Shown here: piece by piece, positions 11,272 to 33,446 of the stretch
Numbering within the stretch: position 1 is the first letter of the stretch
Layout: each line of letters starts with the position of its first letter
Assembly (NCBI GenBank): GCA_944324795.1
Contig: CALUXR010000014.1
Location: forward strand, 1-47,379
Source of the DNA: an uncultured Acholeplasmatales bacterium
GTDB lineage: Bacteria; Bacillota_I; Bacilli_A; Acholeplasmatales; Anaeroplasmataceae
Length of the DNA stretch: 47,379 nt
Direction of reading: 5' to 3'
Translations under genes and position numbers: made by a program
Notes under the pieces: generated by a model
The model's database searches: none
What the model was told of the DNA's origin: nothing
What the model saw: only the letters and a program-made list of their open reading frames with translations

Positions 11272-11295
11272 AAAAAAGTAGTCAAACGACTACTT
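11272..11295 (-). terminator. Terminator of the Bax-inhibitor-1 gene
   Basis: Eight-bp stem 11276-11283 with 11288-11295, loop of 4, minus-strand T6 tail; it overlaps the stop codon. Confidence 0.85.
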
Positions 11296-12040
11296 AATTA
11301 CGATTACTATTACCAAAAATCAATATTAGGAAATATAATACTTGAACATATATATAAATTAAACTTACAATTAGGCCAAGCGATACAGACCATTCTGCCT
11401 TTTTTTCACATCCGGCTGCTACAACATAATTTGCTTCATCAAAATTAAATATTAATGTTATAGCACCATATATTAATAAGAATAATTCAATAAATAGCAT
11501 GATGCCAAAATTATTATAAATTGCTGGCATAAATAAGCCAAATAAAGAAACAAATAAAATTAATACTAAAGCCCCAATACTCATTGCATAAGCAAGTTTA
11601 CGAAGTATTGAACCTTGTCTAAATACACCTGTAGCATATAATAATAACATTACACCAAATATTAAAGCTGTTGAGAAAGCAGCAATTGTACCAACACCAG
11701 GAAAGAATAATTCACATAAAGCAGAAATTGTACCTAAAAATAATCCTTGACATACACTATAAATTATACCACCATACATCGCCGCTCTAAATGAAATACG
11801 TCCTACTAAGGCAGCAATAAAACCAATAATTCCCGAAAATGTTAAAGCTAAAGCTAAACCTACAACATTGCTAGCAAGAATTCTTGGTAACGCTAAAGCA
11901 GTTATGACTGCAACAGCTATAGTAATAATTAATAAAATACTAGTTTTAATAACGACGCCTTTATAACTAGCAGCATCGACATCTTCAAAATGGGTAGAAC
12001 CAGTTTGAATTGTTGCGAAAACTGGATTTTGATTTCTCAT
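11294..12040 (-). CDS. Bax inhibitor-1 / YccA family membrane protein
   Basis: A 248-residue polytopic membrane protein with about seven spans between residues 30 and 245. It has the family pattern of a cytoplasmic N terminus (about 28 residues with NPVF near the start), GGIIYSVCQGLFLGTISAL in the middle, and LIYGAITLIFNFDEANYVV near the C terminus. Bacterial members such as BsYetJ are pH-sensitive calcium leak channels, but the role in this organism is unknown. It stands alone between polC and the ylmH operon with its own terminator. A GGAGGT ribosome site precedes the ATG. Confidence 0.85.
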   Translation of the reverse strand: MRNQNPVFATIQTGSTHFEDVDAASYKGVVIKTSILLIITIAVAVITALALPRILASNVVGLALALTFSGIIGFIAALVGRISFRAAMYGGIIYSVCQGLFLGTISALCELFFPGVGTIAAFSTALIFGVMLLLYATGVFRQGSILRKLAYAMSIGALVLILFVSLFGLFMPAIYNNFGIMLFIELFLLIYGAITLIFNFDEANYVVAAGCEKKAEWSVSLGLIVSLIYIYVQVLYFLILIFGNSNRN

Positions 12041-12132: not shown

Positions 12133-15100
12133 TTAAGCAAATAAACCATATTCTTCTTCTCTATCTTCTTCTGGTAAATCAGAAAAAGCATGCATTAATT
12201 CAAATTCATGATATAAAGTTTGATTAAGTTTTGTTCTTCTTAAAACATCTTTTTTCGAAGTGAACATAGCTTCATTTCTTTTTTGAACGATATCTAAAGC
12301 CGCACTTTCACCTAGACCATCAACTGCTGAGAAAGGAATTCTAATTCCCTCATCTTCAATCTTAAATTCTGTAGCTTCAGATAATTTAATATCAAGTGGT
12401 AAAAATTTAATACCTCTAGATACCATTTCTAATGCTACATATAATGAGTTTATTAAATCATCATCTTTAGCTGTTTTATCATCTTTATTATTTATTTCTT
12501 GAATCATCGCTCTAATAGCTAATTTACCACCCATAAAAGCTTTGATACTATATGCCTTAGCTCTTGCAGAAAACCAGGCACTATAAAATAATTTAGGACT
12601 ATAAACTTTAAACCAAGCAATTCTTAAAGCCATCAAAATATAAGCAGTTGCATGAGCTTTAGGGAACATATATTGAATTTGTTCACATGACCAAATATAC
12701 CACTTTGGTACTTGCTTTTCTTCCATATATTGTTTATAATCTTCCCATTTTTCAGGCATTTTATGAACTTTACCTTTACGAACAAATTCCATTATTTCAA
12801 ATGCTTTTAAAGGTTCAAGATTTTTATATAATAAATAAACCATTATATCATCACGACAACCGATAACGTCACTAAATGGAATTTTACCAAATTCTGTTTT
12901 ACCTAAAACTAAATCTTGACTATTACCAGCCCAAATACCTGTACCATGGCTTAGACCTGATATTTTAACTAATTCTGCAAAAGTTTTAGGCATTGTATCA
13001 GCAAGCAAACGTCTTACAAAAGTTGTTCCTAGTTCAGGTACGGCATAACTAGCAACCGTGCTGTCGATATCTTCTGGTTTAATATTTAAAACATCTGTAC
13101 TATTAAATAAACGATAAACATTTTTATCATCGATAGGAATATCTTCTGGTTTTGAAAATGGAAATTCACTTTGATGTTGATGAACATAATCCATCATATA
13201 TTTAATAATAGTTGGATCATCATGACCTAAGATATCTAGTTTTAATAAATTATTTTCAAAACTATGATAATCATAATGAGTTGTTCGCCATTCATTAGAA
13301 GTATTTAAAGCCGGATATTGAATAGGTGTTACATCATAAATATCAACATATTTAGGAACAACTACAATACCTCCTGGATGTTGACCGGTCGACCTTCTGA
13401 CGCCAATCAATTTTGAAGCGATTCTATCCATTTCGCAAGAACGTAAATTTATCTTTTTTCTTTCACAATAACCTTTAACATAACCATAGGCATTCTTATC
13501 TGCTAAAGTTGCAACCGTACCACCTCTAAAAGCATGGTCATAACCCATAAATTCTCGAACAAATTCATGAGCTGTAGCTTGATAATCACCACTAAAATTC
13601 AGATCGATATCAGGAACTTTATCACCATTAAAACCAAGGAAGGTTTCAAAAGGAATATCATGACCATCTTTCACTAACTTTTCTCCACATACCGGACATA
13701 TAGCATCTGGTAAGTCATAACCACTTTCAACATTATTTAAAACATCTATAAATGGTTTTTCAAGATCACTTATACCATATTCCTTCTTTTCATCTTCATT
13801 CATTTTAAATACTTGAAATTTACATTTAGGACAACGATAATGTGGGGCAAGAGGATTAATTTCAGTTATGCGCATCATTGTAGCAACTAAAGATGAACCA
13901 ACACTTCCTCTACTACCTACTAGATAACCATCACTAAGTGATTTTGTAACTAGTAAATGACTCATATAATATACGCTAGCATAACCATTAGAAATAATAG
14001 AATTAAGCTCTCTATCTAGCCTTTTTTTAACTATTGGATGAGGATTTTCACCATAATGAGATAGCACATTTTCTCCAACAATTTTATTTAGCTCATCGAC
14101 AATTGATGGAATATTTAAACTATCTTTAAATTGATCATCTCTTGGGGCATACATTTCCTTAGGAAATGGAGCTACCTTCTCTATCATATCACTAATTAAA
14201 TTAGAATTTGTAACTACTATTTTATATGCTAGATCATTATCTATAAAATCAAATTCACTTAGCATTTCATCTGTTGTTCTAAGATGCATATAAGGGGTCT
14301 CATTATATCTATTAAGTTCATGATATCTACCACCAAGTTGCGGTGAGCCTATTAAAATATCACGATATTTTTTATCATTTTTAGAAATATAATGACAATC
14401 TGATGTAGCAACAACTATTTTATTTTCTTTTAACGCAATATCAATTATGTTTTTAATTGTTTTTTTAATAGCTTCTTCACCTAAAGTAATATCATCATAT
14501 AAATGATAATAACAAAGTGGTGGTTGTACTTCAATAAAATCATAAAAAGACATCATTTTAGCTACATCATTAATATTACCATTTAATGCTTCTTCAAATA
14601 TCTCTCCATTGACACAACCAGAACTAACTAAAATACCATCACGATATTTTTCTAATACGCTTCTTAATAATCTTGGTTCTTCAGCGCAATTAACGGTTAA
14701 AGCATCAGATAATAATTTATACATATTTTTTAAGCCAATTTGATTTTTAACTAATATATTTATATGTTTAGGTATTAAAGTTTTATAAAAATCAGCATCC
14801 ATTAAATTATTAATTTCATTATAATTTAAAATATCTTTACTAAATAATTCTTTTAACATTAAAATAAAACATTCTGCCGTAACTCTAGTATCATCGATAG
14901 CTCTATGATGATGTTCTTGTTTTACTTTATAAAATTTAGCAAATTCTTTTAAATTAAATTTCTTTAATTCTTTATTATGTAAAGCTCTTAAAGCATTTAA
15001 TGTATCAATAACATCAAAATCAATCTCATCATAATTAAGACGACGCATATTTGCTTTAATCATTCCAACGTCAAAACTTGCATTATGAGCAACTAAGATA

Positions 15101-16569
15101 CATCCTTTAACAAATTCTAAAAATTTTGGTAATACTTCTTCAATAGTTGGGGCATCAGCAACCATTTCATTTGTTATAGATGTCAATTCAGTTATTTTAT
15201 CAGATATTACTATCTTAGGATTAACAAAAGTTTCATAACTATCGATTTCCCCATGTATATTATATTTAGTAGCCGCGATTTCTATTATACGATCATTTTC
15301 TTGACTAAGTCCGGTAGTCTCAAGGTCAAATATTACATATGTTGCATCCTTTAATGATATATCATTATCTGTAAAAGTGATTTTTGTATTCTTATCGTCA
15401 ACATAATTTAATTCAACCCCAAAAATTGGCTTAATATCAGGATATTTATCCATTATATGTGAAACATCAGAAATTGAATATACACCATCATGATCAGTAA
15501 TTGCAAAAGCTTTATGTCCCCACTTAGATATTGTTTCATAATAATCACTAACATCTGCAATACCATCAAGAGCACTCATCTTTGTATGAGCATGTAATTC
15601 TACTCTTTTAACTTTTGCTTCATCAACAACTTCATCTATCTTTCTTTTACCAAGAAGTTCAATCTTACTAGCCATTATAACAACATTTTTAGCATATGGG
15701 TCATATTCAGCTCTTCCTGTTACTTCTAATGTATCATTTGGTTCTAATTTGTTATAAACAGCTATCTCATTTTCACCTCTCAACCATTTCTTTACAACTA
15801 TAGAATCAGTTTCATCAGTAATCTTAATTTGAGCTAAAGTTGAAGTTGTAAAGCTTTTAACTTCACTTTTAAAAATATAACCACTTATTAAAAAAACAGG
15901 ATTACCTTTTGTATTAGCATAAATTGCTAAATCATTACTAGTTTGTGGAATATCTTTAATTGCTGTTTTTGTATTAATTTGAACTGCTCTATAATATTTA
16001 TTTTCTTTTAAAGCTTTTTGATTAGCTTGTAATTCTCTTGCTTCATCATTCATTCTTTTTAGCTCTCCTAATTTTTCTAATTCTAATTGCTTAATTTCTT
16101 CAGCAATACTTTTATTGGGGTCTTGTTCAAATTCAATAGTAATATTTATTCCATAATTTTTAAACTCTTTTTCGATATCTACAGCTAATTGTCCTATTCC
16201 AGCCGCATCTTTTTCAATAATAAATGTGAAAGTTTTATCGCTATATTTAACTTCATTATTAATAAGAAAATTAAAACGAGGCATATTGCTAGCTAAATAA
16301 GCTAAAATGTCTTTTAAATATTCTCTCAATAAATTTTCACTAATAATATTATTTTTATAACTAACATTTAATTTAGTTTTTATATTTAATTCTTTAAAAT
16401 AATCGTTTATACAATTTGTTAAACTTTTATAATTATTAATACTTAAACATTTATCAAATTCTAATTTTAACTCTAAAACATTCCTTAATTTATCATAACA
16501 TACATTAATAAGTTCATAAGGATTATCAGTAAAATCAATTCCTACCTTATCTAAAAATTCTAAATTCAT
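12133..16569 (-). CDS. polC: DNA polymerase III alpha subunit, PolC type
   Basis: Leading-strand replicase of low-GC Gram-positives. Domains in order: N-terminal domain (1-190), OB-fold (about 225-305), PHP domain start (VELHAHTKMSALDG, 323-336), inserted DEDD proofreading exonuclease (FDLETTGL, 414-421, with Asp415 and Glu417; HNASFDVG; HHRAIDDTR), PHP remainder, then palm/thumb/fingers with the zinc-binding CPKC...CPVC pair, the catalytic PDIDLNFSGDYQ, and RRSTGQHPGG. Length 1478 aa is normal for PolC. Its ATG overlaps the DUF1189 stop by 4 bases, making it the last gene of the leuS-like/DUF1189/polC run. In Bacillus, polC follows proS; here a synthetase-like pseudoenzyme occupies that place. 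Confidence 0.97.
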   Translation of the reverse strand: MNLEFLDKVGIDFTDNPYELINVCYDKLRNVLELKLEFDKCLSINNYKSLTNCINDYFKELNIKTKLNVSYKNNIISENLLREYLKDILAYLASNMPRFNFLINNEVKYSDKTFTFIIEKDAAGIGQLAVDIEKEFKNYGINITIEFEQDPNKSIAEEIKQLELEKLGELKRMNDEARELQANQKALKENKYYRAVQINTKTAIKDIPQTSNDLAIYANTKGNPVFLISGYIFKSEVKSFTTSTLAQIKITDETDSIVVKKWLRGENEIAVYNKLEPNDTLEVTGRAEYDPYAKNVVIMASKIELLGKRKIDEVVDEAKVKRVELHAHTKMSALDGIADVSDYYETISKWGHKAFAITDHDGVYSISDVSHIMDKYPDIKPIFGVELNYVDDKNTKITFTDNDISLKDATYVIFDLETTGLSQENDRIIEIAATKYNIHGEIDSYETFVNPKIVISDKITELTSITNEMVADAPTIEEVLPKFLEFVKGCILVAHNASFDVGMIKANMRRLNYDEIDFDVIDTLNALRALHNKELKKFNLKEFAKFYKVKQEHHHRAIDDTRVTAECFILMLKELFSKDILNYNEINNLMDADFYKTLIPKHINILVKNQIGLKNMYKLLSDALTVNCAEEPRLLRSVLEKYRDGILVSSGCVNGEIFEEALNGNINDVAKMMSFYDFIEVQPPLCYYHLYDDITLGEEAIKKTIKNIIDIALKENKIVVATSDCHYISKNDKKYRDILIGSPQLGGRYHELNRYNETPYMHLRTTDEMLSEFDFIDNDLAYKIVVTNSNLISDMIEKVAPFPKEMYAPRDDQFKDSLNIPSIVDELNKIVGENVLSHYGENPHPIVKKRLDRELNSIISNGYASVYYMSHLLVTKSLSDGYLVGSRGSVGSSLVATMMRITEINPLAPHYRCPKCKFQVFKMNEDEKKEYGISDLEKPFIDVLNNVESGYDLPDAICPVCGEKLVKDGHDIPFETFLGFNGDKVPDIDLNFSGDYQATAHEFVREFMGYDHAFRGGTVATLADKNAYGYVKGYCERKKINLRSCEMDRIASKLIGVRRSTGQHPGGIVVVPKYVDIYDVTPIQYPALNTSNEWRTTHYDYHSFENNLLKLDILGHDDPTIIKYMMDYVHQHQSEFPFSKPEDIPIDDKNVYRLFNSTDVLNIKPEDIDSTVASYAVPELGTTFVRRLLADTMPKTFAELVKISGLSHGTGIWAGNSQDLVLGKTEFGKIPFSDVIGCRDDIMVYLLYKNLEPLKAFEIMEFVRKGKVHKMPEKWEDYKQYMEEKQVPKWYIWSCEQIQYMFPKAHATAYILMALRIAWFKVYSPKLFYSAWFSARAKAYSIKAFMGGKLAIRAMIQEINNKDDKTAKDDDLINSLYVALEMVSRGIKFLPLDIKLSEATEFKIEDEGIRIPFSAVDGLGESAALDIVQKRNEAMFTSKKDVLRRTKLNQTLYHEFELMHAFSDLPEEDREEEYGLFA

Positions 16570-17351
16570 TGTTTTCTAGCCTCTACTTTAACAATACTTT
16601 TTAATGATATAAAAAAATATATAATGGGAATTAACATAGCCACATATTGTAAAAAACTTATATTTAACATATATGCTAATATATATATTACTAAATAAGG
16701 AATCCCACAGTGTAATAATAAACTAAATCTAAATTTACCTTTAATTGAACTATTAATATTATATGTAATTAAAAATGTTATTAAAAATATAAATAATAAA
16801 GTCCCTAATATTTCAAATAGATTAAAAAATGTATTTGATGCTGCTAAACTATTATTATAAGCATTAAAAGCTATACTAATTAGTGTACCTAAAGCTATTC
16901 TACTTGTATTATCATTGCTACCATCTATTTTAAAATCACTTATATTTAAAGTATTATAATTAACTTTTTCTAATAATTTATTTCCTAAATAAACTTCATA
17001 ATTATCACTATTAAAGATAATTATAAAAGTTTCTGTTCTTTCACTAGTATTATCTAAAAAATAAATTCCTAAATTATTATCATCAAAACTATAAATATAT
17101 TTTTTAGCTGTCCCACTTAAAACTTTATTGTTAAATGTTAAATCAGCAGTATCATCACGCATAATTACATTAGTTATTTGATTTTCTTCAGTTTGTGGTA
17201 AATTAGAATAGCCTTTATATAAACTAAATAATAATACTCCTAATATAGCTATTAATATAATATATAAAACAATAACTTTCCAAATTTTATCAATAATAAA
17301 CTTACCAATAAAACTGGGGTGTAATAAACATATTCTTAATCTATCAAACAT
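16566..17351 (-). CDS. DUF1189-like membrane protein
   Basis: A 261-residue protein with one membrane span near 22-46, an extracytoplasmic segment of about 100 residues rich in Asn, Asp and Thr, and four spans toward the C terminus (about 155-255). Layout and the N-terminal HPSFIGKFI...KIWKVI pattern recall DUF1189 proteins of Bacilli, whose function is unknown. It lies 15 bases after the leuS-like gene and overlaps polC by 4 bases, so it is cotranscribed and translationally coupled with both. No catalytic motif is visible. The family call is tentative. Confidence 0.55.
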   Translation of the reverse strand: MFDRLRICLLHPSFIGKFIIDKIWKVIVLYIILIAILGVLLFSLYKGYSNLPQTEENQITNVIMRDDTADLTFNNKVLSGTAKKYIYSFDDNNLGIYFLDNTSERTETFIIIFNSDNYEVYLGNKLLEKVNYNTLNISDFKIDGSNDNTSRIALGTLISIAFNAYNNSLAASNTFFNLFEILGTLLFIFLITFLITYNINSSIKGKFRFSLLLHCGIPYLVIYILAYMLNISFLQYVAMLIPIIYFFISLKSIVKVEARKQ

Positions 17352-17366
17352 ATTATTCCTCGCTTT

Positions 17367-19304
17367 CTAAATTATCCAACTTAGATTTAAAATTAATTCT
17401 CTTTTATTTAAAAATTCATAATTTAAATCTTCTGCTAAATTAGGACATACAATACTTAAAAGTATTAAAAAGTCACTAGCTTGTTTTTTAGTTAATTGTT
17501 TATTTTCAATATATTCTTTAAAAAATTCAAATATATCTTTTATATATTTATCTAAATCAAGACTAACTAAATCATCAAATAATTTGTTTTTTAATTGATA
17601 AAATGGAAATTCTAAATCAAAATTACTAGCTAAAAAACCCTTCATAAAACAAGCTCTAATCTTATTTAATATTTGTTTATAATAAAATATTTTATTTTCA
17701 TCAAAATAAATTTTATCTTCTAATCCTATACTTAAATAATATAATCTAACCGCATCAGCACCATAATTTGCAAGCAAATCTAATACTTTTATACAATTAT
17801 TAGAACTTTTTTTAATATCATTACCATATAAATCATAAACATTATCATATATTTTAATTTCTAAATTTTTAAATATTTTAATATTTTTATTATCACTAAT
17901 AATACTTAAGATAATAATAGGCATTAATAAAGTTTCTAATATTTCCTTTTTATTAATAACTAAAGTTAAATTATTTAAATACTTTTCTAAAATCATTAAA
18001 TTTGTTTTACTAAATACATCACCAATATCAGCTAAATTATCATTTAATATATTTAATATTATTTCTATTCCTCTCATAAACAAATCATTAAAAGAATAAT
18101 CAACTAATTCACAATTATTATCATTATTAAATTTTAAATGTTTAAATTCATCATAATAAATTGGTATAGCTTTAGATAATGGTTTTAAAGTGTTTTTTTC
18201 TAAAGGTATTGGAAATAAATAATTATTAAATGATGATATGACTATTTCTTTCTTTTCATAATTATAAGTTTTTTGGGCCATACCTTCTTCACTAAACATT
18301 TCTACAATTTTAATTCTCGCGTCTTCTTTAGTTAAGCCATCTAAAAAATCACTATTGCATAAATAATTACCATTGTAAATATTAATAGGGTTAATATCAA
18401 AATAATTAAAGTCAGCTAAATCTGTGGTGCTAAATAAAGTTTTAATTGGCACATCATATTTAAAACTTATAAATATAGGAACTTCTTTACCTGTTAAAGG
18501 ATTAATTATAAAATTACCACTATATAAATATGGTTTATTTTTCCTAAATAAAAAATTTTCAACTGATGATATTTCCCATGGGGCTATATATTCTAAAATA
18601 TCGATATAATTAGGACTAATTACAATAGCTCCTAAAGCTCCAAGTTCTTCTGGTGCTTCTAAAAATAAATTGATTTTTTTATCATTTGAAGTATTTAATT
18701 CTAATTCTAAAGTTGTATATTCCCCTAATGCTTTATAAATTTTATCTTTATATTCATCTTTAATACTTAAATTATCAATAATATTGATTATTGTTTTTAA
18801 ATGTTTTGTTATATTTAAAGTGAATGCATAATCATTTTTTAATCTATATTTATTATCTATTTGCATTTGATCATATGTATTATATTCATCTTTAAATAAA
18901 GGAATTTCTTTGTATTCAACATAACCTTTATCATATAAATATAAGAATATTTGTTGAATTAATTTTAAAGAGTCATAACTATTATTAACAACTAAACGAT
19001 TATTGATATAGCCACAATTTAATTTAATTAATTCATCTAAATAAGTTTTATAATAATTGATAGCTTTAGTCCTATTTTCATTTGAATTAATAGTAAAAAA
19101 ACCAGGATTAGCTAGAACATTAAGATTCTTAAAACGATAATATCTTGCTAAACTATCAACATATAAATTAGCTCTAAAATTAGCATTTAAAAAACCATTT
19201 TCTATGGTTTTAATAAAAGGAGTAAAAATTAATTGATTTTTTTTAATAACGTTATTTTCAACATCAAAAAGATGTTGTTGTTGCCAAACATTATACCAAT
19301 TCAT
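17367..19304 (-). CDS. Leucyl-tRNA synthetase paralogue lacking both catalytic signatures
   Basis: The 645-residue chain follows LeuRS from end to end: an N-terminal W..Q element; the Rossmann entry LYVDSLARYYRFKNLNVLANPG (47-68); a CP1 editing-domain outline (FLEAPEELGALGAIVISP, 214-231, then PLTGKEVPI, 269-277); the LeuRS segment FLDGLTKEDARIKIVEMF (320-337); the second Rossmann half with LLANYGADAVRLYYLSIG (510-527); and an anticodon-domain-like tail (CPNLAEDLNYEFL, 620-632). The HIGH position reads NANF (40-43) and the KMSKS position reads IKKSS (497-501). The T-rich editing site and the RLRDW..SRQRYWG block are also gone. It lacks the last 60-150 residues of LeuRS. Activation of leucine therefore looks impossible, yet the frame is intact, with a strong GAGGAGG site. 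It heads the operon with DUF1189 and polC. Role unknown. Confidence 0.75.
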   Translation of the reverse strand: MNWYNVWQQQHLFDVENNVIKKNQLIFTPFIKTIENGFLNANFRANLYVDSLARYYRFKNLNVLANPGFFTINSNENRTKAINYYKTYLDELIKLNCGYINNRLVVNNSYDSLKLIQQIFLYLYDKGYVEYKEIPLFKDEYNTYDQMQIDNKYRLKNDYAFTLNITKHLKTIINIIDNLSIKDEYKDKIYKALGEYTTLELELNTSNDKKINLFLEAPEELGALGAIVISPNYIDILEYIAPWEISSVENFLFRKNKPYLYSGNFIINPLTGKEVPIFISFKYDVPIKTLFSTTDLADFNYFDINPINIYNGNYLCNSDFLDGLTKEDARIKIVEMFSEEGMAQKTYNYEKKEIVISSFNNYLFPIPLEKNTLKPLSKAIPIYYDEFKHLKFNNDNNCELVDYSFNDLFMRGIEIILNILNDNLADIGDVFSKTNLMILEKYLNNLTLVINKKEILETLLMPIIILSIISDNKNIKIFKNLEIKIYDNVYDLYGNDIKKSSNNCIKVLDLLANYGADAVRLYYLSIGLEDKIYFDENKIFYYKQILNKIRACFMKGFLASNFDLEFPFYQLKNKLFDDLVSLDLDKYIKDIFEFFKEYIENKQLTKKQASDFLILLSIVCPNLAEDLNYEFLNKRELILNLSWII

Positions 19305-19324
19305 TATAATTGCCTCCTCATGAT

Positions 19325-19352
19325 AAAAAATACTGTGAAAACACAGTATTTT
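19325..19352 (-). terminator. acpP terminator
   Basis: Perfect 11-bp stem (19327-19337 with 19342-19352), 4-base loop, minus-strand T-tail. It touches the acpP stop and separates acpP from the leuS-like gene. Confidence 0.85.
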
Positions 19353-19587
19353 ACTTTGATGATTGCTCTTCTATATAATCTACTAAATCTTTAACAGTTT
19401 TAATTTTTTCTGCTGCATCATCAGCAATAGAAATATTAAAACTTTCTTCTAAATTCATGATAATCTCTACAGCATCTAGACTATCAGCACCTAAATCATC
19501 TGCTAAATTAGCATTTAAGGTAACTTTATCTTTAGAGATATTTAGATTATCAGCAATAATAGCTTGAACTTGTTCAAATACTGTCAT
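19351..19587 (-). CDS. acpP: Acyl carrier protein
   Basis: Carries growing acyl chains on a 4'-phosphopantetheine arm in fatty-acid synthesis. The attachment serine is Ser36 in GADSLDAVE; helix II that partner enzymes recognise follows. At 78 residues, acidic, with the four-helix pattern, it is a standard ACP. It has its own promoter and terminator, unlike the fab-cluster location usual in Bacilli. It lies directly upstream of the leuS-like gene, but the terminator argues against a shared transcript. Confidence 0.95.
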   Translation of the reverse strand: MTVFEQVQAIIADNLNISKDKVTLNANLADDLGADSLDAVEIIMNLEESFNISIADDAAEKIKTVKDLVDYIEEQSSK

Positions 19588-24904: not shown

Positions 24905-25471
24905 TTAATCCTCTCTATCAAATCTTTCAGAACTTTTAATCCATATAAAATCATAACCCAAATCATCTAATATTGTTTTATTATGATATGTTTCATTTCT
25001 ATCAAATTGAAGGGATATATAACATTGATTGTCAGTAAACATAAGGCCACCTCTATCAAATTCATATGGAAAATTTTTATCACCAACATCTATGCATTCA
25101 ATTAATGTAAAATCAACTCGTTCTAATGTATCTTCTGTATAACCAATTAATATTTCTAAACTATAACATTTATTTTCCCCTCTATATGTCATATCTTTTA
25201 CTACATTTAAGAAATTTGCTTTATTATATTCTTCTTCAGTTATTTCTATTATAGTAGCTTTAATAATTAGATCAAATTCTTTTGGTTTTTCTTTTTTATC
25301 AAAATCAGATATCCACCATTCTCTTCTTTCTTCTTCTTTTTCATAAACAATTCCTGATATTTCTAAATTATCATAAACGCCTGCAACTATAGGTGGACCA
25401 TGTTTTGCAGATCTAGTACATGAAGTTAATAATAATATAATTAACATCATTAAAAATAAACTTTTTCTCAT
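24905..25471 (-). CDS. Lipoprotein, tandem paralogue 1
   Basis: A 188-residue secreted lipoprotein: signal MRKSLFLMMLIILLLTSC with lipobox Cys18. The mature part is acidic, with no family I recognise. It ends in a segment (DRNETYHNKTILDDL.YDFIWIKSSER) shared almost word for word with the next gene. GAGAGGA precedes the ATG. It lies 3 bases after the neighbouring paralogue and just before the broken peptidase lipoprotein, which shares its first 13 residues and ribosome site. The three genes are thus related by recent duplication of their 5' ends. Confidence 0.75.
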   Translation of the reverse strand: MRKSLFLMMLIILLLTSCTRSAKHGPPIVAGVYDNLEISGIVYEKEEERREWWISDFDKKEKPKEFDLIIKATIIEITEEEYNKANFLNVVKDMTYRGENKCYSLEILIGYTEDTLERVDFTLIECIDVGDKNFPYEFDRGGLMFTDNQCYISLQFDRNETYHNKTILDDLGYDFIWIKSSERFDRED

Positions 25472-25474
25472 TTT

Positions 25475-25837
25475 TTAATCCTCTCTATCCATTCTTTCAG
25501 AACTTTTAATCCATATAAAATCATATCTCAAATCATCTAATATTGTTTTATTATGATATGTTTCATTTCTATCATATGTAATATTCACATAAAAAGAATC
25601 TCCATTAAATAAAAGCATTCCTCTATCAAATTCATAATTGTATGCTCTTTGCCCATTTGAATTTGAATCTTCAAATAGAATATAATCAACTTGTTCTAAT
25701 GTATCTTCTGAATAACCAATTAATATTTCTAAACTATCATAAACACCCGCAACTATAGGCGGACCATGTTTAGGAGATCTTGTACATGAGGTTAATAATA
25801 AAATAATTAACATCATTAAAAATAAACTTTTTTTCAT
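25475..25837 (-). CDS. Lipoprotein, tandem paralogue 2 with internal deletion
   Basis: A 120-residue paralogue of the preceding entry with the same lipobox (LLTSC, Cys18). It lacks about 70 residues (36-105 of the longer protein). The junction lies where both parents read N/SLEI, and the DNA there carries the direct repeat ATATTTCTAAA, so a simple repeat-mediated deletion explains it. The C-terminal half is otherwise conserved, and the frame is open with a good signal peptide, so it may still be made. Function unknown. Confidence 0.7.
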   Translation of the reverse strand: MKKSLFLMMLIILLLTSCTRSPKHGPPIVAGVYDSLEILIGYSEDTLEQVDYILFEDSNSNGQRAYNYEFDRGMLLFNGDSFYVNITYDRNETYHNKTILDDLRYDFIWIKSSERMDRED

Positions 25838-31989: not shown

Positions 31990-32080
31990 ATAAAAAGCTA
32001 ATGAAGCCACAACAAAAAAATGTTGTAGACGTCATTAGCTTAAATAGCGGTTTTGAATTAATCATGGTAGACATCATTAC
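31990..32080 (-). promoter_or_regulatory. Hairpin leader of the antiporter gene, candidate attenuator
   Basis: The minus-strand leader holds a two-part hairpin: AAGCTAATGA with TCATTAGCTT (32032-32041 and 31995-32004) and inside it ACAACA with TGTTGT, followed by TTTTTATG, then the ribosome site. A 13-base motif TAATGAYGTCTAC occurs twice, at 32067-32079 and, inside the 5' arm of the hairpin, at 32025-32037. The upstream copy can form the small stem GGTA/TACC. This looks like an RNA switch or a protein-binding attenuator, but it matches no class I recognise. Confidence 0.45.
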
Positions 32081-32118
32081 CAAATATATTAAACACTTTA
32101 ATAAGTTTTTTTACAATA

Positions 32119-33357: not shown

Positions 33358-33446
33358 TAAATAGGGTAGAGAAAATATAATAATAGTTTTCCCTCCCATT
33401 GCACCGTACGTACGGGTCCGTATACGGCGCTACATTTATATTAAAC
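33358..33446 (-). mobile_element. Group II intron 3' end (domains V-VI), 5'-truncated element
   Basis: The minus strand reads GCGCCGTATACGG, then CCGTACGTACGGTGC, which pair as the conserved domain V-type hairpin found right after group II intron maturase genes. It is followed by GGGAGGGAAAA pairing with TTTTCTCTACCC (domain VI-like), ending near 33360. It directly follows the maturase fragment, confirming an intron tail. The rest of the intron is missing. Confidence 0.65.

Follow-up and report, generated by a model that had tools for sequence, protein, structure and literature searches.

Gene duplication is the usual explanation for proteins that resemble aminoacyl-tRNA synthetases but have other functions. 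HisZ, the HisRS-like regulatory subunit of HisG, has no adenylation activity; it has the class II fold and acts in histidine biosynthesis. Working synthetases can also have side jobs, and the CP1 domain of yeast mitochondrial leucyl-tRNA synthetase (LeuRS) takes part in group I intron splicing. Two second LeuRSs have been described in archaea. LeuRS-I of the Sulfolobaceae binds tRNA-Leu, makes leucyl-adenylate and is important for growth (Weitzel 2020, via the review PMC9437257), and LeuRS2 of the Halobacteria keeps weak charging activity and tRNA affinity (Fang 2014, via the same review). As far as that review describes them, neither lacks both signature motifs, and its account of synthetase duplications includes no LeuRS-derived protein with another function. 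No bacterial pseudo-LeuRS was found in the set of papers searched.

The window analysed here is a stretch of 47,379 nucleotides from an uncultured Acholeplasmatales bacterium whose 1.7 Mb genome is 99.5% complete. It contains a minus-strand leuS-like gene (Table 1), which the initial annotation had placed correctly and recognized as LeuRS-derived. The encoded protein matches the TIGR00396 profile significantly (54.5 bits, E 5.8e-15) and fails the curated cut-off of 548 bits for this bacterial LeuRS equivalog; LeuRS chains in the PDB match it by sequence at E 1.5e-6. An AF2 model built with 23 orthologues has a pLDDT of 87.6 and a pTM of 0.85, and its top structural matches are LeuRS structures, covering residues 1-645 (VIA Z 33-35). 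A second orthologue, which shares about 26% identity with the window protein, is modelled with the same LeuRS fold (pLDDT 85, VIA Z 28-30). Both modelled proteins have the Rossmann core, CP1 and the helical anticodon-domain fold, in agreement with the colinearity to LeuRS proposed from the DNA alone. The structural match ends at residue 806 of the T. thermophilus enzyme and residue 789 of the E. coli enzyme, which indicates that the C-terminal tRNA-binding domain is missing. Sequence alignment with real LeuRSs stops at the EEWP position, and the C-terminal domain is absent in all copies examined. The open reading frame is real and LeuRS-derived, and keeps the full LeuRS fold minus the C-terminal domain.

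Table 1. Features of the leuS-like locus, with positions in the window
Feature	Position	Strand	Basis
leuS-like gene, 645 aa (ATG at 19304, stop at 17367); probable displaced native LeuRS, catalytic motifs all degenerate	17367..19304	-	
N-terminal Rossmann half, residues 1-196 (approximate), including the HIGH equivalent L39-N-A-N42	18717..19304	-	alignment with real LeuRSs
CP1 editing-domain equivalent, residues 197-356 (approximate), T-rich motif lost	18237..18716	-	alignment
KMSKS equivalent D496-I-K-K-S500	17805..17819	-	alignment
Shine-Dalgarno, perfect AGGAGG, 8 nt 5' of the leuS-like ATG	19313..19318	-	sequence
Hairpin and T-run between acpP and the leuS-like gene, terminator by eye	19325..19350	-	sequence
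Acyl carrier protein gene (acpP), upstream of the leuS-like gene, identified by eye	19351..19587	-	sequence
Membrane protein, DUF1189-like; follows the leuS slot in the ancestral gene order	16566..17351	-	
polC, ancestral neighbour	12133..16569	-	
Bax-inhibitor-1 (BI-1) family gene, closing the conserved block	11294..12040	-	

Motif equivalences were taken from an alignment of the dead copies with functional LeuRSs. The HVGH position reads L39-N40-A41-N42 and the KMSKS position D496-I497-K498-K499-S500, with the second lysine position still a lysine. The initial annotation was right that HIGH and KMSKS are lost but assigned them to neighbouring residues (NANF at 40-43 and IKKSS at 497-501). 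The second lysine position is K or R in most members of three genera only: g1, the genus of the window, g5 and g6. The T-rich editing motif TTRPDT has become LEAPEE, a loss also noted earlier, and the EHAVGH leucine-site segment is gone. The RLREW..ARQRYWG block, first described as missing, has lost its motif without being deleted; its sequence is altered to EIVISSFNNY, where SFNNY stands for the RQRYWG part.

These losses extend to every orthologue checked. HIGH is absent in 42 of 42 dead copies and TTRPDT is replaced in all 42; KMSKS is missing from each of the 41 copies that extend over it, the remaining one being cut by a contig end. No orthologue has HIGH or KMSKS intact, which argues against a merely local decay in the genome of the window. 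The sole kept element of the editing pocket is the equivalent of Asp345 of E. coli LeuRS, Asp295 in the window protein, invariant in 34 of 34 copies; it directly precedes a helix, so its role may be structural. CP1 contains the densest run of invariant residues in the family. New conserved motifs are present at two of the old positions: SSLDxFG at the RQRYWG block and I-x-[KR]-x-[NS]-N-N at the KMSKS loop in g1, g5 and g6.

The leuS-like gene is separated by 15 bp from the membrane-protein gene on the same minus strand, and the latter overlaps polC by four bases; acpP, on the upstream side, is outside the conserved slot. The hairpin between acpP and the leuS-like gene is not among the predictions of a computed terminator scan, and a scan of the window and of related loci found no T-box close to the gene. 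The membrane protein, earlier labelled DUF1189, has no Pfam match in the window; an orthologue from a sister family hits DUF1189 with E 5e-5, which does not reach the curated cut-off.

Several observations concern other parts of the window and other genomes. Rfam places a group II intron domain and a fluoride riboswitch at 33361-33432 (-) and 32019-32090 (-) of the window. At 24905-25837 of the window lie two tandem lipoprotein-like open reading frames of 188 and 120 aa, near copies of one another. In a separate genome, five group I introns exceed the gathering score (G025:C4:38822-85891), four of them within about 4 kb, and none was found in 26 other genomes searched.

The window's family, f1, comprises gut-dwelling relatives of Anaeroplasma, and a profile of the dead LeuRS detects the gene in 51 of 55 f1 genomes. 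Assembly gaps account for three of the four absences: the polC locus is missing from the assembly of G004, and contigs break at the slot in G123 and G135. In the fourth genome, G013, another gene occupies the slot, adjoining a contig end. Among 395 genomes sampled across the class, no member of the profile was found outside f1, and the lowest-scoring member reaches 697 bits against 327 bits for the best real LeuRS.

The separate, genuine leuS that the initial annotation proposed to confirm is present elsewhere in the window's genome and encodes 804 aa (1071 bits). A bacterial-type functional LeuRS was found in every f1 genome searched, in some as fragments only, with the exception of G125, G144 and G016. 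These three genomes carry the dead LeuRS, and neither a bacterial-type nor an archaeal-type functional LeuRS was found in them; no archaeal-type LeuRS exceeded the cut-off in any genome without a bacterial match. G125 is rated 99% complete, and the missing functional gene is probably an assembly gap in all three. Separately, the functional LeuRS of 12 g5 genomes (L171, L263, L264, L266-L270, L272-L275) has KMGKR for KMSKS and TTCIET for TTRPDT; these changes are uniformly conserved, and this is the only LeuRS found in those genomes.

The long open frame was initially taken to imply selection, and sequence divergence agrees. Pairwise dN/dS of the dead gene is 0.04-0.23 in most close pairs, and that of functional LeuRS is 0.03-0.15. 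In most pairs of the window's genus the dead gene reaches 0.4-0.6; constraint is weaker there by this measure, and AT-saturated synonymous sites probably inflate the ratio. The dN of the dead gene is two to nine times that of functional leuS in most genome pairs compared, and in five of the nine pairs the lowest dN falls in CP1. Neutral drift, simulated to the observed synonymous divergence, yields on average 35-47 stop codons and a pN of 0.30-0.45, against no stops and pN values of 0.04 and 0.30 observed; for the window's genus about 47 stops are expected. The frame is open in 51 f1 genomes (one copy is cut by a contig end), and no frame damage was found in full-length f1 orthologues. By its sequences, the dead gene is inherited vertically and maintained by purifying selection throughout the family; it thus encodes a working protein, one that cannot be an ordinary leucine-tRNA ligase.

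In the sister families f3 and f5, the sole leuS is full length, has intact motifs and occupies the same slot. The order in f5 and several f3 genomes is leuS - ytqB - TIGR01212 - membrane protein - polC - BI-1, with the ytqB-like and TIGR01212 (radical SAM) genes divergent; in other sister-family genomes leuS is followed directly by the membrane protein and polC. Within f1 the dead gene holds this slot, the order of leuS-like gene, membrane protein and polC is conserved, and TIGR01212 is still adjacent in the genera examined except g1. The TIGR01212 gene is absent from all six g1 genomes tested (G000-G003, G005, G007). The functional f1 leuS is found at another locus; in several genera its neighbours form a cluster that we read as iron-sulphur (suf) genes.

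The LeuRS tree places the dead clade with the f3 and f5 enzymes (SH-aLRT 99), and the functional LeuRSs of f1 and f2 group with LeuRSs from MAGs labelled Erysipelotrichaceae and Clostridia. A constraint that unites the dead copies of f1/f2 with the functional ones lowers the log-likelihood by 37.6 units (AU p 0.033), a modest rejection obtained with a fast tree search and long branches. Lineage-specific insertions follow the same division. The SSWY-to-KW spacing is 27 in all f3/f5 enzymes and in the two dead copies of f2, and mostly 25 in the dead copies of f1. It is 22 without exception in the 20 outside LeuRSs and the 13 functional LeuRSs of f1/f2. The LANDE-to-SERG spacing is 10 in f3/f5, in the f2 dead copies and in five of 16 f1 dead copies, the region being shortened in the rest; it is 6 in functional f1/f2 LeuRSs and 6-7 in outside LeuRSs. 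Vertical inheritance of the locus is supported by the polC tree, and the dead-LeuRS tree has the same genus order. Locus, insertions and tree position all assign the dead gene by descent to the native Acholeplasmatales-type LeuRS lineage, and it does not group with the functional LeuRS of the same genomes, as a duplicate paralogue would. Because the sister-family slot, the tree and the shared insertions agree, and the working f1 LeuRS is of an outside type, the dead gene is probably the displaced native LeuRS of the lineage, persisting as a pseudoenzyme.

In family f2, a copy with less degradation lies close to the same TIGR01212 and membrane-protein genes. The f2 copies have a dN/dS of 0.38, and one of them ends early. 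The functional LeuRS of f2 nests with that of genus g2, so displacement in f2 was possibly a separate, later event; the f2 copies could reflect independent displacement, in which case the same pseudoenzyme outcome happened twice. A third, clostridial-type LeuRS occurs in G013 (C19, L191) and in f4 (G027:C15, L190/L252). No native leuS copy was found at the polC locus of either, and total loss of the native gene is probable. The steps towards a pseudoenzyme may thus be readable in living genomes, with the sister lineages as the state before, f2 as an intermediate and G013 and f4 as probable total loss.

In the proposed course of events, a LeuRS gene of another bacterial type would have been acquired elsewhere in the chromosome and taken over tRNA charging. 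The resident leuS would then have lost the ATP site, the leucine site, the editing site and the C-terminal tRNA-binding domain while its fold was kept. We tentatively favour a non-catalytic binding or regulatory subunit as the present function, in which the LeuRS core may serve as a scaffold or regulator with CP1 as its best conserved part. The old LeuRS may already have had this binding role as a side function and kept it when charging was handed over, or the role may have come later. That an essential native synthetase, displaced by a foreign one, became a family-wide non-catalytic protein may reflect a second job of the old enzyme that the newcomer could not do, a possibility that we put at somewhat less than even. 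Two specific roles were considered and rejected. A role in group I intron splicing is contradicted by the absence of group I introns from the 15 f1 genomes tested and from f3/f5 genomes, and an obligate pairing with the TIGR01212 radical SAM protein by g1, which keeps the dead LeuRS without TIGR01212 (six of six tested).

Other functions for the dead LeuRS can be weighed on the same data. It might bind tRNA-Leu or another RNA and act as a chaperone, decoy or translation assistant, as the retained LeuRS fold would allow and as the tRNA-Leu affinity kept by both archaeal LeuRS-I and LeuRS2 (PMC9437257) would suggest. This is unlikely, since the C-terminal tRNA-binding domain is missing from all copies examined and orthologues outside g1, with a net charge of -24 to -42, match or exceed native LeuRS in acidity. 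Slightly less likely is a partner subunit that stabilises or tunes the acquired LeuRS. No dead gene was found in G013, which has the third LeuRS type, and otherwise the dead gene co-occurs with the acquired type; G013 is, however, a single informative absence beside a contig end. The dead gene also follows the genus order of polC, whereas the tree of the functional LeuRS cuts across genera (g3 is split and f2 nested with g2) and the functional gene was apparently exchanged among genera.

A remodelling of the Rossmann site for another substrate, comparable to cyclodipeptide synthases or MshC, is improbable. The two new motifs that replace old ones would fit such new catalysis, but they are not kept in g2-g4, and HIGH has not been replaced by any invariant group of new polar residues. 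Very improbable is the proposal of the initial annotation that a duplicate-type paralogue of f1's own LeuRS was recruited to the polC operon, linking an amino-acid or tRNA signal to replication. In its favour, polC lies nearby on the same strand with short gaps, and the neighbourhood is conserved in f1; the same neighbourhood nevertheless surrounds the working leuS of the sister families and so predates the loss of activity, and by both tree and indels the gene belongs with the native LeuRS type rather than the functional copy. Proximity to polC is therefore a matter of inherited gene order and silent on any new function. A decaying, functionless relic is scarcely credible for f1, where open frames, low dN/dS and the missing stops outweigh the raised dN; neutrality is rejected for f1 only and not for f2, whose copies would suit a relic better.

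A displaced native LeuRS turned binding or regulatory protein would have wider meaning. The route was likely different from duplication: a foreign LeuRS freed the native one, which was kept without its chemistry. In these relatives of the Mollicutes, the old LeuRS thus seems to have had, or to have acquired, some role besides tRNA charging. The locus is also a warning that an operon which is mere inherited gene order is not a guide to function.

Compared with known systems, the dead LeuRS resembles LeuRS-I, in what the review conveys of it, as a second, non-charging LeuRS beside a working one, with a disrupted CP1 and an altered C-terminal domain. LeuRS-I differs in keeping tRNA-Leu binding and leucyl-adenylate formation; the dead LeuRS has lost both signature motifs and the C-terminal domain, is bacterial and probably stems from displacement of a native gene. 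LeuRS2, as summarized in that source, is likewise a retained second LeuRS whose role is not known, but it charges weakly and has tRNA affinity. HisZ offers a model for a regulatory pseudo-synthetase, being synthetase-derived and without adenylation, and a HisZ-like regulatory role for the dead LeuRS is possible by analogy; HisZ has the class II HisRS fold, unlike the class I fold found here, and the dead LeuRS has no biosynthetic partner adjacent to it. The direct functional counterpart is the native LeuRS of the Acholeplasmataceae and f5, which shares the locus and the lineage-specific insertions and, unlike the dead LeuRS, is intact, with every motif present in a protein of about 800-850 aa.
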